DNA from: an uncultured Eubacteriales bacterium
GTDB taxonomy: Bacteria; Bacillota; Clostridia; Oscillospirales; Oscillospiraceae
Direction: 5' to 3'
NCBI GenBank assembly: GCA_900319635.1
Contig: ONPF01000024.1
Location: forward strand, 22,742-66,763
DNA: 44,022 nt
Positions 3,148 to 22,584 of the stretch are shown piece by piece. How positions within the stretch are numbered: the stretch's first letter is position 1; the number at the start of each line of letters is the position of its first letter. The position numbers were made by a program, and so were the translations under genes. The notes beneath the pieces were generated by a model. It was not told the origin of the DNA, searched no databases, and saw nothing but the letters and a program-made list of their open reading frames with translations.

Positions 3148-3486
3148 TGTAGACAAAGTCGGTATTCTGCCATCGAGAACCAGTAGGGACGACCATTGGT
3201 TGTCCGTCTGTCCACACCGCGCCGGTATTCACGGACGAGCAATGCTCGTCCCTACGGGGTGGCGACGGCACATTGCCGAGGGCGCAAGCCCGCGTCCTAT
3301 TTGTGCTTAGTCCCTTTAGGGGCGATCCGCATCCTGAACGCCTTGAATATACAGTTTTTTAGAAGAAGAACGGATTGCTGCGCCGTAGGGAGGCATCCCC
3401 AGATGCCTCCGGGGCGCTTGAACGGCGGAGCGATCTGGGGATCGCTCCCTACGGCTCGCAATGACATGCTTTGCGGTTTGTCTACA
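3148..3486. mobile_element. MITE-like palindromic repeat, copy 1 (339 bp)
   Basis: Non-coding repeat bounded by inverted ends TGTAGACAAAG (3148) and TTTGTCTACA (ending 3486). The interior holds pairs of perfect hairpins: GGACGACC/GGTTGTCC and GGACGAGC/GCTCGTCC near 3186-3262, then GGAGGCATC/GATGCCTCC near 3389-3410 and GGAGCGATC/GATCGCTCC near 3427-3448. Most of it aligns, in inverted orientation, with 20421-20642. Copy 1 carries a longer middle module than copy 2. No transposase is encoded, so movement would need an enzyme supplied elsewhere. Nothing in it looks like a protein gene. Confidence 0.75.
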
Positions 3487-3523: not shown

Positions 3524-3659
3524 TGGAGCGGATGATGGGAGTCGCATGCATTGGTTTTCCCTTGCGGGAGACGGGAAAACCAATAAAGGAATTCGCCAGC
3601 GTTTGCGCTGGCTCATGCACATGCCCTATGGCATGTGCGATGACATATTCGACTCCCCT
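3524..3659 (-). repeat. tRNA-tail hairpin repeat, copy A (tRNA-Gly type)
   Basis: The first 21 bases (3524-3544) equal the complement of the 3' end of tRNA-Gly(CCC), including CCA. A four-stem body follows. P1 pairs GGGAGTCG (left) with CGACTCCC (right end); P2 is GGTTTTCCC/GGGAAAACC; P3 is CCAGCG/CGCTGG; P4 is GCACATGCC/GGCATGTGC with a CTAT loop. The conserved single strands are CATGCAT, CTTGCGGG and AGAATTCGCCAG. The strand given is that of the tRNA. I do not recognise it as a named family. Confidence 0.75.
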
Positions 3660-3810: not shown

Positions 3811-3940
3811 GCGGATGATGGGAGTCGCATGCATTGGTTTTCCCTTGCGGGGGACGGGAAAACCAATAAAAGAATTCGCCAGCGTTTGCGCTGGCTCATG
3901 CACATGCCACCGGCATGTGCGATGACACATTCGACTCCCC
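3811..3940 (-). repeat. tRNA-tail hairpin repeat, copy B (tRNA-Gly type)
   Basis: Bases 3811-3827 equal the last 17 acceptor and T-arm bases of tRNA-Gly (complement), here without CCA. The body is nearly identical to copy A: P2 GGTTTTCCC/GGGAAAACC, P3 CCAGCG/CGCTGG, P4 GCACATGCC/GGCATGTGC with an ACC loop, and the outer strand CATTCGACTCCCC at 3928-3940. It lies directly beyond the terminator of the real tRNA-Gly. Confidence 0.75.
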
Positions 3941-3950
3941 TCAACGCCAG

Positions 3951-3982
3951 AAAAGGCGAGACCCTTGAGGGTCCCGCCTTTT
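3951..3982 (-). terminator. intrinsic terminator of tRNA-Gly
   Basis: On the minus strand AGGCGGGACCC, loop TCAA, GGGTCTCGCC and TTTT follow directly after the CCA end of the tRNA. Confidence 0.85.
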
Positions 3983-3983
3983 C

Positions 3984-4057
3984 TGGAGCGGATGATGGGA
4001 GTCGAACCCACCTTATCGGCTTGGGAAGCCGGAGTTCTACCGATGAACTACATCCGC
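3984..4057 (-). tRNA. tRNA-Gly, anticodon CCC
   Basis: A 74-nt cloverleaf on the minus strand with a GCGGATG/CATCCGC acceptor stem, a GTTC..GAAC D-stem, anticodon loop TTCCCAA (anticodon CCC) and T-arm GGG-TTCGACT-CCC. The discriminator base is U and CCA is encoded. It has its own promoter and terminator. The anticodon stem has one C-A mismatch at its base. Two repeats downstream copy its 3' end. Confidence 0.95.
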
Positions 4058-20420: not shown

Positions 20421-20642
20421 GTGTAGACAAACCCAAAACATGTCATTGCGAGCCATAGGGAGCGATCCCCTGATCGCTCCGCCGTTCAAGCGCTCCGGAG
20501 GCATGTGGGCATGCCTCCCTACGGCGTGGCAATCCGTTCTTCTTCAAAAAACCCGTGTATTCAGGGCTTTCAAGTTGCGGATCGCCACACCAGTGACATC
20601 GGTCACTGGTTCGCGATGACAGAAATCCGACTTTGTCTACAG
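20421..20642. mobile_element. MITE-like palindromic repeat, copy 2 (222 bp), inverted relative to copy 1
   Basis: Ends are TGTAGACAA and CTTTGTCTACA. The reverse complement aligns with copy 1 (3148-3486) over the ends and over about 165 nt around the hairpins GGAGGCATG/CATGCCTCC and GGAGCGATC/GATCGCTCC. One stem pair is C-G in copy 1 and G-C here. The middle module is short (a CCAGTGAC/GTCACTGG hairpin, 20590-20609). No reading frame is supported. Confidence 0.75.
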
Positions 20643-20646
20643 TCTG

Positions 20647-20674
20647 AGGCCACCGGATGGTGGCCTTCTTTTTT
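20647..20674 (+). terminator. terminator stem-loop, right duplicate with T-run
   Basis: AGGCCACC, loop GGAT, GGTGGCCTTCTTTTTT. This is the intact half of the duplicated terminator and probably ends the flavodoxin operon, now 300 nt downstream of the stop codon. Confidence 0.75.
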
Positions 20675-20777
20675 GGTCGGAGTGGCGAGACTTGCGAGCA
20701 TTTTTCGCTTGCGGGGGACGCGAAAAATCAAAGAATTCGCCAGTGTGCGCACTGGCTCATGCACAGGCCACCACAAT
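20674..20777 (-). repeat. tRNA-tail hairpin repeat, copy C (tRNA-Pro type), truncated
   Basis: Bases 20674-20694 equal the complement of the last 21 nt of tRNA-Pro(CGG), including CCA, although that tRNA is 1.8 kb away. The body follows copy D (P2 TTTTTCGC/GCGAAAAA, P3 CCAGTG/CACTGG), but it breaks off inside P4 at GCACAGGCCACCA, so the far side of P1 is missing. Confidence 0.75.
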
Positions 20778-20779
20778 GC

Positions 20780-20828
20780 AAAAAAGAAAGCCACCGAAGG
20801 GGGCACTTCGTAAGGTAGTGCCCCCTTC
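20780..20828 (-). terminator. terminator of the glycosyltransferase gene
   Basis: On the minus strand GAAGGGGGCACT, a short loop, AGTGCCCCCTTC, then TTTCTTTTTT. The stretch 20829-20916 shows nothing further. Confidence 0.75.
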
Positions 20829-20916: not shown

Positions 20917-21972
20917 TTAGTCCCATCTTTCAATTAATCGGTATTGAATATAATCGGCGAGAGGACGTGTAATCCGTAAAGTGTATAAAAAACGCTTAAC
21001 GTATTTGGGTATGCCGTTGATTCTGCATTTGACATATGCAAGGAATGGTTTTTTCCGCCAAAGGCGGATGTCTTTTTGGAGATACGACCAAGGCTGAACG
21101 TCACTATGGTTCAGCAAGAAGAACTCTTCGCCGGCTATCAGTTCTTTAACAAAGCCAAACGAGTTTTCTATGGATATGTCCTTTAAGCATTCGCCGATCA
21201 GCGAGATGATAGTACGATCAATGCCGTATGATACTCCATGGGCCTCATAAATAGTTTTCGCAAGTTGTTGAGCTTTGTAATGCTCTTGGAACTTGTTCAC
21301 GCTGCTCTTGGTGTGCATGCAGGATTGATCGTTCATATAGTAGGAGAAGATGATCCGATCCATGCAAGTAATGGTTCTTGCAAATGTACAACAAAGCTGA
21401 TAGAAAATGACATCCTCAGTGGTATTTGTATTAGGATACCGAAATGAGTATGAATTCAGATAATCCAACCGATATATAATAGCGCAGTGGGCTTCGCCGA
21501 TAATATGCGATAGATCTGGCTTATCATAAACGTGAGTCCCAGGTGATACGCGTAGCGGTTTTATCCATTTTTTGTTAGGGCTTATTTTTTGATAAGAAAA
21601 ACAATAGAGATCTGAGCTTTCCGGACGTGAAAGCTCAGACACTAAATCGTCAGATAAGAAATCTCGTTCCCACCAGTCGTCACTATCGAGGAACGCTATA
21701 TACTTTCCCGAAGCATTCTCTATGCCCAGATTGCGGGCAGAGCTAACACCACCGTTTTTCTTATGGAATACTTTTACGCCAGAATTGGCTTCTGAAAGCT
21801 TGTCGCAACTGTTCGCACTGTTGTCAGTCGATCCGTCATCAACAAGAATCAGCTCAATGGAATCCGCGTTTGGCTGCAATAACACAGAGTTGGCAGCTTT
21901 TTCGATATACTGTTCGGAATTAAAAACCGGAATAACCACGGTGATCAAGGGCTCTGATACTGCAATCTCCAT
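20917..21972 (-). CDS. family 2 glycosyltransferase
   Basis: The 351-residue inverting GT-A enzyme would add a sugar to a surface polysaccharide, teichoic acid or lipid-linked chain. The GT2 start is LITVVIPVFNSEQYIEKAANSVL (about 9-31), then ELILVDDGSTDNSA, GGVSSARNLGIENASGKYIAFLDSDDWWE with the metal-binding DSDD. The C-terminal basic stretch (KCRINGIPKYVKRFLYTLRI) suggests membrane association. The ATG at 21972 has AGGAGAG upstream; the longer frame to 22020 lacks one. The gene is visibly more AT-rich than every neighbour and sits alone between two repeats of the tRNA-Pro 3' end, strong signs of horizontal acquisition. Confidence 0.9.
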   Translation of the reverse strand: MEIAVSEPLITVVIPVFNSEQYIEKAANSVLLQPNADSIELILVDDGSTDNSANSCDKLSEANSGVKVFHKKNGGVSSARNLGIENASGKYIAFLDSDDWWERDFLSDDLVSELSRPESSDLYCFSYQKISPNKKWIKPLRVSPGTHVYDKPDLSHIIGEAHCAIIYRLDYLNSYSFRYPNTNTTEDVIFYQLCCTFARTITCMDRIIFSYYMNDQSCMHTKSSVNKFQEHYKAQQLAKTIYEAHGVSYGIDRTIISLIGECLKDISIENSFGFVKELIAGEEFFLLNHSDVQPWSYLQKDIRLWRKKPFLAYVKCRINGIPKYVKRFLYTLRITRPLADYIQYRLIERWD

Positions 21973-22313
21973 TTGATTCTCTCCTGTAAAGCAAAAAAGT
22001 GCGTGCAACCGAAGCCACACGCGCCAAAAAACGCACAGCCTCGTTTGCTGCCACGCAATTTCTTTCCATCATAGGTGTATAACAATGTGAAATTGCGCTA
22101 TAGGGATATTGTATCCTAAAATGAAGAGTGTTTCAAGTTTTCTTTGTCCACAGTCATAGCGAGCATCGGATTTTGTCCCACAAAATCCGTAACTGGCAGA
22201 CAAAATAGGCGTGACCGTGGTGGTCACGCTTATTTCATTTCTTTTTAGCCAGTTATTGTCTGCCTAAAAGCAACTTCCTTACGGAGTGCCTTGCGAGAGG
22301 TGGCCTTCTTTTT
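21973..22313. other. AT-rich intergenic part of the tRNA-Pro islet
   Basis: No gene. It contains a perfect 10-bp hairpin CGGATTTTGT/ACAAAATCCG (22167-22189). A second hairpin, GCGTGACC/GGTCACGC with a T-rich tail (near 22210-22233), lies between inverted GGCAGACAA/TTGTCTGCC. CTTTGTCCACAGTC near 22143 resembles the ends of the MITE-like repeat. Near 22270-22313 is a degenerate inverted copy of the 20780-20828 terminator. A promoter for the glycosyltransferase is not clear. Confidence 0.5.
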
Positions 22314-22463
22314 TGGTCGGAGTGGCGAGACTTGCATGCATTTTTCGCTTGCGGGGGACGCGAAAAATCAAAGAATTCGCCAGTGTGCGCACTGGCTCAT
22401 GCACAGGCCACCGGCCTGTGCGACACAGGCCACCGGCCTGTGCGATTACACATTCAAGTCTCG
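22314..22463 (-). repeat. tRNA-tail hairpin repeat, copy D (tRNA-Pro type)
   Basis: Bases 22314-22334 equal the complement of the tRNA-Pro 3' end including CCA. P1 pairs GCGAGACTTG with CAAGTCTCG (end 22463). P2 is TTTTTCGC/GCGAAAAA around the same TTGCGGGGGAC loop as copies A and B. P3 is CCAGTG/CACTGG and P4 is GCACAGGCC/GGCCTGTGC. P4 is tandemly duplicated (a 22-nt unit near 22402-22445). It begins just beyond the terminator of the real tRNA-Pro. Confidence 0.8.
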
Positions 22464-22475
22464 TCACAGTGAAAC

Positions 22476-22505
22476 AAAAACAGGGGGCGTTTGCCCCCTG
22501 CTTTT
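22476..22505 (-). terminator. intrinsic terminator of tRNA-Pro
   Basis: Minus strand AAAAGCAGGGGGC, loop AAAC, GCCCCCTGTTTTT, directly after the tRNA. Confidence 0.85.
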
Positions 22506-22508
22506 GTT

Positions 22509-22584
22509 TGGTCGGAGTGGCGAGACTTGAACTCGCGGCCTCATGGTCCCGAACCATGCGCGCTACCAGCTGCGCTACACCCCG
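22509..22584 (-). tRNA. tRNA-Pro, anticodon CGG
   Basis: A 76-nt cloverleaf on the minus strand with acceptor CGGGGTG/CACTCCG, D-arm GCGC..GCGC, anticodon arm CATGG-TTCGGGA-CCATG (anticodon CGG) and T-arm GCGAG-TTCAAGT-CTCGC. The discriminator base is A and CCA is encoded. The 3' end from T-loop base C56 is copied exactly in repeats C and D. Confidence 0.95.

Follow-up and report, generated by a model that had tools for sequence, protein, structure and literature searches.

Genes for tRNA-Pro and tRNA-Gly in a stretch of 44,022 nucleotides from an uncultured Eubacteriales bacterium of the Oscillospiraceae (contig ONPF01000024.1, assembly GCA_900319635.1; called the window here) are followed by a hairpin-rich repeat whose outer stem is made of sequence from the 3′ end of the neighboring tRNA. 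A preliminary description suggested that the repeat is a mobile, attC-like folded site, with a tRNA-mimic RNA as the other option. This raises the question of whether such tailored ends are a general property of the repeat and, if so, what kind of element would take its ends from its neighbor.

The repeat at tRNA-Pro and tRNA-Gly

The window contains three full copies and one truncated copy of the element, all on the minus strand and downstream of tRNA-Pro and tRNA-Gly. Read along the tRNA direction, the tRNA is followed by a terminator-like hairpin, an inverted arm, a body of about 100 bp with three hairpins and a direct arm. tRNA-Pro(CGG) (22509..22584; ARAGORN, Rfam RF00005) ends with the segment from C56 to CCA (22509-22529) that is the source of the arm repeats. 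Behind a terminator-like hairpin recognized by eye (22473..22508), element A begins with its 5′ (inverted) arm (22455..22463), a 9-mer reverse complementary to tRNA positions 56-64, continues with a three-hairpin body in which the first hairpin is present in duplicate (22336..22454), and closes with a 3′ (direct) arm that copies the tRNA exactly from C56 to CCA (22314..22334). An open reading frame for a family 2 glycosyltransferase, oriented in the tRNA direction (20917..22020; Pfam PF00535, E 1.7e-32), lies between element A and element B. The body of element B (20696..20790; 66.7 bits with the body model described below) is truncated on its 5′ side and has lost the inverted arm, and its 3′ arm (20674..20694) is again an exact copy from C56 to CCA. 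The 21-nt tail of tRNA-Pro is thus found with 0 mismatches at both positions (shuffled mean 0.01).

At tRNA-Gly(CCC) (3984..4057; ARAGORN, Rfam), likewise followed by a terminator-like hairpin identified by eye (3947..3983), two elements stand in tandem. The proximal one consists of a 5′ arm reverse complementary to tRNA positions 56-63 (3932..3939), a body overlapping this arm by two bases (3829..3933; 118.2 bits) and a 3′ arm of 17 nt identical to the tRNA (3811..3827), which ends at ..CCGC and lacks CCA. In the distal one, a 5′ arm (3650..3657) and a body with the same two-base overlap (3546..3651; 114.2 bits) are followed by a 3′ arm that, as the only one of the two, continues to CCA (3524..3544). 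Two perfect matches to the 17-mer of tRNA-Gly starting from C56 occupy 3811-3827 and 3528-3544 (mean after shuffling 0.01).

In each intact copy one strand is able to fold with an outer stem that repeats T-loop and T-stem sequence of the neighboring tRNA, and the single-stranded DNA folds of the three intact copies have z values of -9.10, -8.77, and -7.40. The preliminary description had stated that identity to the tRNA stops between T-loop positions 55 and 56 in both loci. This applies to the direct arm, which begins at C56, but not to the inverted arm, which also holds an AA complementary to T54-T55. Since T54-T55 is near universal in tRNAs, this AA is indistinguishable from sequence belonging to the element itself.

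Two further repeats of the window were noted. ARAGORN calls a tRNA-Arg(ccg) at 3379-3459 without support by Rfam, and by eye this segment is a palindromic intergenic repeat. Additionally, a dispersed REP-like palindrome occurs at 20500-20650 and near several contig ends (L012-L016).

Occurrence beside tRNA genes and fit of the arms

Seven copies were found in the own genome with an exact core pattern, two each at tRNA-Pro and tRNA-Gly, one at tRNA-Arg, one at tRNA-Leu and one at locus L006, and a DNA search returned the same seven together with weaker pieces. The copy at L006 (L006:230-400) lies near a contig end with no tRNA seen in the 246 bases upstream; its arms are CAACTCCC, a sequence similar to the 3′ end of tmRNA. 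A body model made from six copies, with the arms excluded, gave nine matches in the own genome, one of them at tRNA-Thr. Across the genus it matched 53 of 102 genomes (E <= 0.001) with a maximum of 18 matches per genome. Among 300 genomes sampled from 106 genera of the family, it matched 11 genomes and 7 genera, the own genus included (E <= 1e-4). Of 17 loci from other genera, 11 closely follow a same-strand tRNA called by ARAGORN, two are located behind a truncated tRNA and three are tandem copies behind those two, the remainder being L248. One exact pattern retrieved 34 stretches from named genome records, all of them uncultured bins with titles naming Oscillospiraceae, Ruminococcaceae, Clostridiales, Clostridia or Eubacteriales, and several also naming goat, sheep or roe deer gut. 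No match was obtained for one exact pattern in viral contigs or for one 201-base query in phage and plasmid collections. A full-text search of the open-licence literature, judged by title and start of the abstract, returned no description of such repeats, which does not by itself prove novelty.

To determine the position of the element relative to tRNAs, 120 places were fetched and 155 copies (85 + 70; 151 distinct) read. A same-strand ARAGORN tRNA is present within 4 kb upstream of 118 of the 155 copies, comprising 16 tRNA species, and in 87 of these 118 the distance is 45-90 nt; 1240 points drawn at random from these loci gave no such case. The 37 copies without a called tRNA include 16 behind a tRNA fragment or an uncalled tRNA, two (L129, L309) behind a further tail copy preceded by TT, five behind an earlier unit and nine within 150 nt of a contig end. 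For only five copies, L006, L290, L304, L341, and L293:6287 (a weak match), was nothing seen upstream, be it a tRNA, a fragment of one or an earlier unit, that would explain their position. When the nearest upstream copy of the direct arm (<=1 mismatch) was sought for all 155, it belonged to a called tRNA in 79 cases, was preceded by TT in 16 and element-like in 24; none was found in 36, many of which adjoin a tRNA but carry a changed arm.

The fit of the arms was examined for the first 85 copies, 68 of which have a tRNA within 3 kb. The direct arm is identical to the own tRNA in at least 11 of 13 positions in 61 of these 68 copies, and it fits the own tRNA above every tail differing by at least three bases in 64, the other four being exceptions. 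For the inverted arm, at least 11 of 13 positions are identical in 42 of the 68, with the best fit to the own tRNA in 38 and ties in 12. A direct copy of positions 56-66 follows within 3 kb downstream of 55 of 96 tRNA genes, in loci which had been chosen for the repeat, while six other tRNA segments gave 0-7 of the same 96 genes in the same test. Over positions 56-66, the two arms pair in 89% of cells (73 delimited copies), in comparison to at most 79% when arms were swapped between tRNAs, a control that is high because the tails of tRNAs resemble each other. The ends of the element are tailored to the adjacent tRNA, and this observation is general. The outer stem starting at C56, first noticed in the window, recurs beyond it, with the four exceptions in arm fit and the five isolated copies set against this.

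The two arms differ in their extent. Identity of the direct arm stays at about 90% up to position 70 (weakly matching copies dropped for both arms), and in most copies this arm continues through the acceptor. The inverted arm does not: its identity amounts to 94-100% at positions 56-63, declines to 79, 76, 67, and 59% at positions 64-67 and then approaches chance, and over positions 65-76 it reaches a score of at least 8 in only 6 of 62 copies and exceeds every other tail in 14 of 62. The earlier assumption of a stem continued through the acceptor consequently stands for the direct arm and falls for the inverted one.

Truncated tRNAs that start at or before the anticodon region and look like the far ends of integrated elements were seen at L088, L090, L095, L105, L117, and L119. 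L117 and L118, which come from two species, are 99.97% identical across 11.7 kb.

Fold, related bodies, and gain or loss of units

Changes on both sides were observed for 23 of 27 pairs in 84 distinct rows (shuffled mean 16.7), in an alignment that was fitted to the model, and standard pairs make up 98.9% of the cells in these rows. On the tRNA-sense strand, G-U accounts for only 50 of 3937 cells (1.3%) and A-C for 20 (both alignments, model pairs), as opposed to 62 G-U in 660 cells (9.4%) when 55 tRNA genes of these loci were scored over their acceptor and T stems. Free folds, where further pairs are counted too, gave 3.8% G-U on the tRNA-sense strand and 4.7% on the opposite strand. Mean fold energies of the two strands are -46.7 and -46.5 kcal/mol with RNA parameters and -30.7 and -30.5 kcal/mol with DNA parameters, a gap of only 0.2 kcal/mol on average (p 0.054 and 0.0002, respectively). 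Since RNA helices normally tolerate G-U, its rarity suggests hairpins of DNA, which an enzyme that binds DNA, or copying from one arm to the other, would maintain. The nearly pure Watson-Crick stems point to a role at the level of DNA and not of RNA.

At least three further bodies, different by eye, have the same layout as the main body. A second body was found in the own genome at tRNA-Leu(UAG) and in genome G044 at tRNA-Pro, and another one, again with arms starting at C56, at tRNA-Val and tRNA-Gly. Yet another, with arms from positions ~49-57, is present at tRNA-Ala, tRNA-Arg, and tRNA-Thr and stands in tandem at tRNA-Pro of genome G079. In the own genome, a direct tail copy within 600 nt accompanies 7 of 22 tRNA genes and an inverted one 4 of 22; the respective numbers for G079, which is without the main body, are 1 of 32 and 0 of 32.

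Relatives with flanks that are 81-95% identical differ by whole units in three pairs of loci (L133/L131, L092/L096, L123/L108), the extra unit having another body in the first two pairs and the main body in the third. Because the tRNA-side terminator is common to both loci in the first two pairs, the extra unit appears to have been placed after the terminator and not at C56. Both flanks are kept in close pairs, while many pairs at greater distance (about 72-80%) align on the upstream side only. Comparing tRNA loci of G000 and G079 with filled loci yielded no empty site of a first insertion. A body joined straight to a tRNA fragment at L089:6001 was discarded as a candidate junction, as a deletion between two 8-bp repeats suffices to explain it.

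Bodies are closer to each other between genomes at the same tRNA (1 of 500 shuffles; weak grouping), but not within one genome (137 of 500 shuffles). For 68 copies, the nearest body was located in another genome at the same tRNA in 27 cases, in the same genome at another tRNA in 7 and in neither in 34. This grouping by tRNA and not by genome argues against recent spread between tRNAs; judging by these distances, the element family appears to be old and to have seldom moved from one tRNA to another.

Candidate mechanisms

In searches for an acting enzyme, integron integrase (TIGR02249) was not found above the cut-off in any of the 102 genus genomes. Sub-threshold matches occurred in 100 of these 102 and in 14 of 14 control genomes, as expected from other tyrosine recombinases. 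The own genome has four Phage_integrase matches, read as two Xer-like enzymes and two belonging to integrative elements. Neither an integrase nor a Y1 transposase was recognized by eye among the longest open reading frames of 13 intervals or in six stretches, and a Pfam search of five interval proteins gave no integrase. Together with Y1 transposases that do not track the repeat (see below), these results give no backing to the expected integrase or Y1 transposase gene bounded by the repeat. As bodies do not cluster by genome either, movement is not proven, and the candidates left are hairpin-templated copying and an enzyme that is either Xer-like or has been lost or overlooked.

Based on its anatomy, the element looks like an unrecognized kind of recombination or insertion site, no acting enzyme having turned up in the searches made. 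The explanation we tentatively place first, while considering it to fall somewhat short of an even chance, is a folded, attC-like site or mobile unit acting at the level of DNA at the T-loop end of tRNAs. The direct arm would be the old 3′ end of the tRNA, displaced by a unit inserted at C56 which brings a new tRNA 3′ end, terminator, inverted arm and body, so that the tRNA stays whole. The inverted arm, covering about positions 54-63(66), may persist because it lets single-stranded DNA restore a short duplex half-site (~8-11 bp) matching the tRNA target, analogous to the folded attC for the integron integrase. A recombinase encoded elsewhere, with an Xer-like tyrosine recombinase as first candidate, could then join folded site and tRNA, and units would accrete in tandem, at times with a gene between them. 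Excised as one strand, the succession of tail, terminator, inverted tail, body and tail might form a dumbbell with a stem repeating the tRNA target. Of the site proposed in the preliminary description, the folded DNA fits the covariation and the rare G-U; for its mobility, the step from anatomy to recombination is one that we infer.

Several known systems resemble the element in part. With integron attC, including attC clusters lacking an integrase, it shares a folded single-strand site of conserved structure and variable sequence as well as tandem units, and with integron cassettes, in a few places, a single gene of the same direction ahead of the site. attC has the shape of one bulged stem, whereas the element carries three hairpins on an outer stem that comes from the local tRNA. 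Unlike cassettes, most units are without a gene and are anchored at tRNA genes, and they occur in a genus of which 102 genomes gave no integron integrase above the cut-off. The way in which a folded recombination site becomes matched to its target and the origin of attC-like sites are, to our knowledge, open questions; with stems from 16 tRNA species, the single body offers a natural series in which this is directly testable. The dumbbell considered above would resemble folded attC sites, which exchange a single strand while replication supplies its complement (PMC8946536).

tRNA-targeted islands (Islander) are likewise characterized by a restored tRNA, a displaced 3′ fragment and a boundary in the T-loop, crossovers of such integrated islands in tRNA genes being placed in the anticodon loop, the T loop or the T/acceptor junction (PMC4383910). 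Here, in contrast, a unit of ~150-300 bp in which no integrase was noticed also has an inverted copy, and one body is found at 16 tRNA species; island finders requiring an integrase would miss such units. The element would also mark the 3′ flanks of tRNAs as sites where small insertions recur in these uncultured bacteria, many of which come from animal guts. Phages using Xer, such as CTXphi, possess a folded single-stranded attP that targets dif, in which, as in the element, two inverted arms around hairpins form a duplex matching the chromosomal target. The element differs in that its target is the T-loop of tRNAs and not dif, and in that no phage matched the query tried.

A folded recombination site has its most serious competitor in hairpin-templated copying, which we regard as unlikely but well conceivable. 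According to this explanation, bodies or scars arrive next to the tRNA by any route, with a copy of the tRNA 3′ end remaining on one side, and a template switch of replication at hairpins (quasi-palindrome correction) copies this tail in inverse beside the body, with no dedicated recombinase involved. The near-perfect Watson-Crick stems with little G-U would be accounted for in this way, as would L005 and L097, where the tail and the inverted arm, together with the terminator, make up a single long palindrome that extends through CCA, in L005 with a 2-nt insertion. Where the arms differ, moreover, the 5′ arm fits the tRNA over the own 3′ arm in 23 versus 5 of 31 cells, many of which come from two badly delimited copies. 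On the other hand, the inverted arm stops near position 66 in most copies although the direct arm continues, which favors a fixed functional length, and the start at C56 recurs in the different body at tRNA-Val and tRNA-Gly.

If a folded site is indeed used by a recombinase, units could possibly also capture genes. Copies located >500 nt behind an earlier tail copy number 10 of 119, or 11 when L099, with its own tRNA 166 nt upstream, is included; most copies leave no room for a gene. Five inspected intervals contain, by eye, an open reading frame in the tRNA direction with a terminator before the element, namely the glycosyltransferase of the window, a 98-aa (L087), a 161-aa (L098), a lipoprotein-like (L122) and a 23S_rRNA_IVP (L128) frame, of which Pfam names only the first and the last. 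At L087, the second unit has a terminator and an inverted arm that nearly copy those of the first. The 98-aa gene there is rare, occurring in 3 genomes out of 400 from the family, none of which belongs to the genus, and neither the repeat nor a tRNA is present in the 3.3 kb covered for its best relative (L344). The gene at L128 was rejected as a captured cassette: among 30 loci of its relatives (query included), it closely follows a same-strand tRNA in 14, and the repeat is present in only 2, so that this family, which stands beside tRNAs without the element too, provides no proof of gene capture. We consider it doubtful that the Oscillospiraceae possess a gene-capture system of their own, with tRNAs as docking sites, stems remade per tRNA and an unrecognized recombinase that inserts units at the T-loop as single strands, whether or not they carry a gene.

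Genes of the same four-helix 23S_rRNA_IVP family (L348-L377) were seen beside tRNAs for Arg, Leu, Cys, Glu, Thr, Pro, and Ser, in most cases unaccompanied by tail copies. Two long open reading frames were dismissed as cargo, one at L089, which we take to be NptA-like, as it belongs to the flanking chromosome common to L111, and one at L119, as its orientation is opposite to the tRNA.

REP and REPIN sequences are short non-coding palindromic repeats associated with RAYT transposases. The element agrees with them in being short, non-coding and palindromic, and 21 bp of its middle hairpin are also part of the dispersed REP-like palindrome of the own genome. An origin as a unit similar to REP or IS200/IS605, with a RAYT-type Y1 transposase as mover that prefers folded DNA beside tRNAs and terminators, would be in line with Y1 matches in 8 of 14 carriers. 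Such matches, however, also occur in 6 of 12 genomes without the repeat and are missing from six carriers (G010, with 18 copies, G040, G026, G072, G236, and G295), two of which, G236 and G295, are rated 100% complete. Furthermore, the element is tied to tRNAs and a Y1 guide gives no reason for arms that are remade per tRNA, which renders this origin improbable.

It is also quite improbable that the copies represent scars of ordinary integrative elements or prophages, i.e., direct tRNA 3′ copies remaining after tyrosine integrases had acted at tRNA genes. The truncated tRNAs seen by eye ahead of several copies do imply that integrative elements use these tRNAs, and a displaced tRNA 3′ fragment is their standard mark (PMC4383910). 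Neither the presence of one body family at 16 tRNA species nor the inverted arm is expected from such scars, the truncated tRNAs begin well before C56, and no integrase was noticed in the intervals (by eye; five proteins searched). Finally, an RNA element that mimics the tRNA or has a regulatory role, and is produced together with the tRNA or after it, could draw on the strong covariation and on the excess of G-U over A-C among the rare non-Watson-Crick cells of the tRNA-sense strand, but is very improbable given G-U far below that of the neighboring tRNA stems, the nearly equal folding of both strands, the terminator-like hairpin that by eye separates tRNA and element in many first copies, and Rfam, which at the gathering score reports tRNA only and below it weak, unrelated leader matches.

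Next to the element, a second hairpin-rich repeat (CGTCAGAAGAAG... or CGTCGGAAGAAG...) was observed right after or near the CCA of a tail copy at L245:1600-1680, L257, L135, and L026, that is, in several genera and at several tRNA loci.
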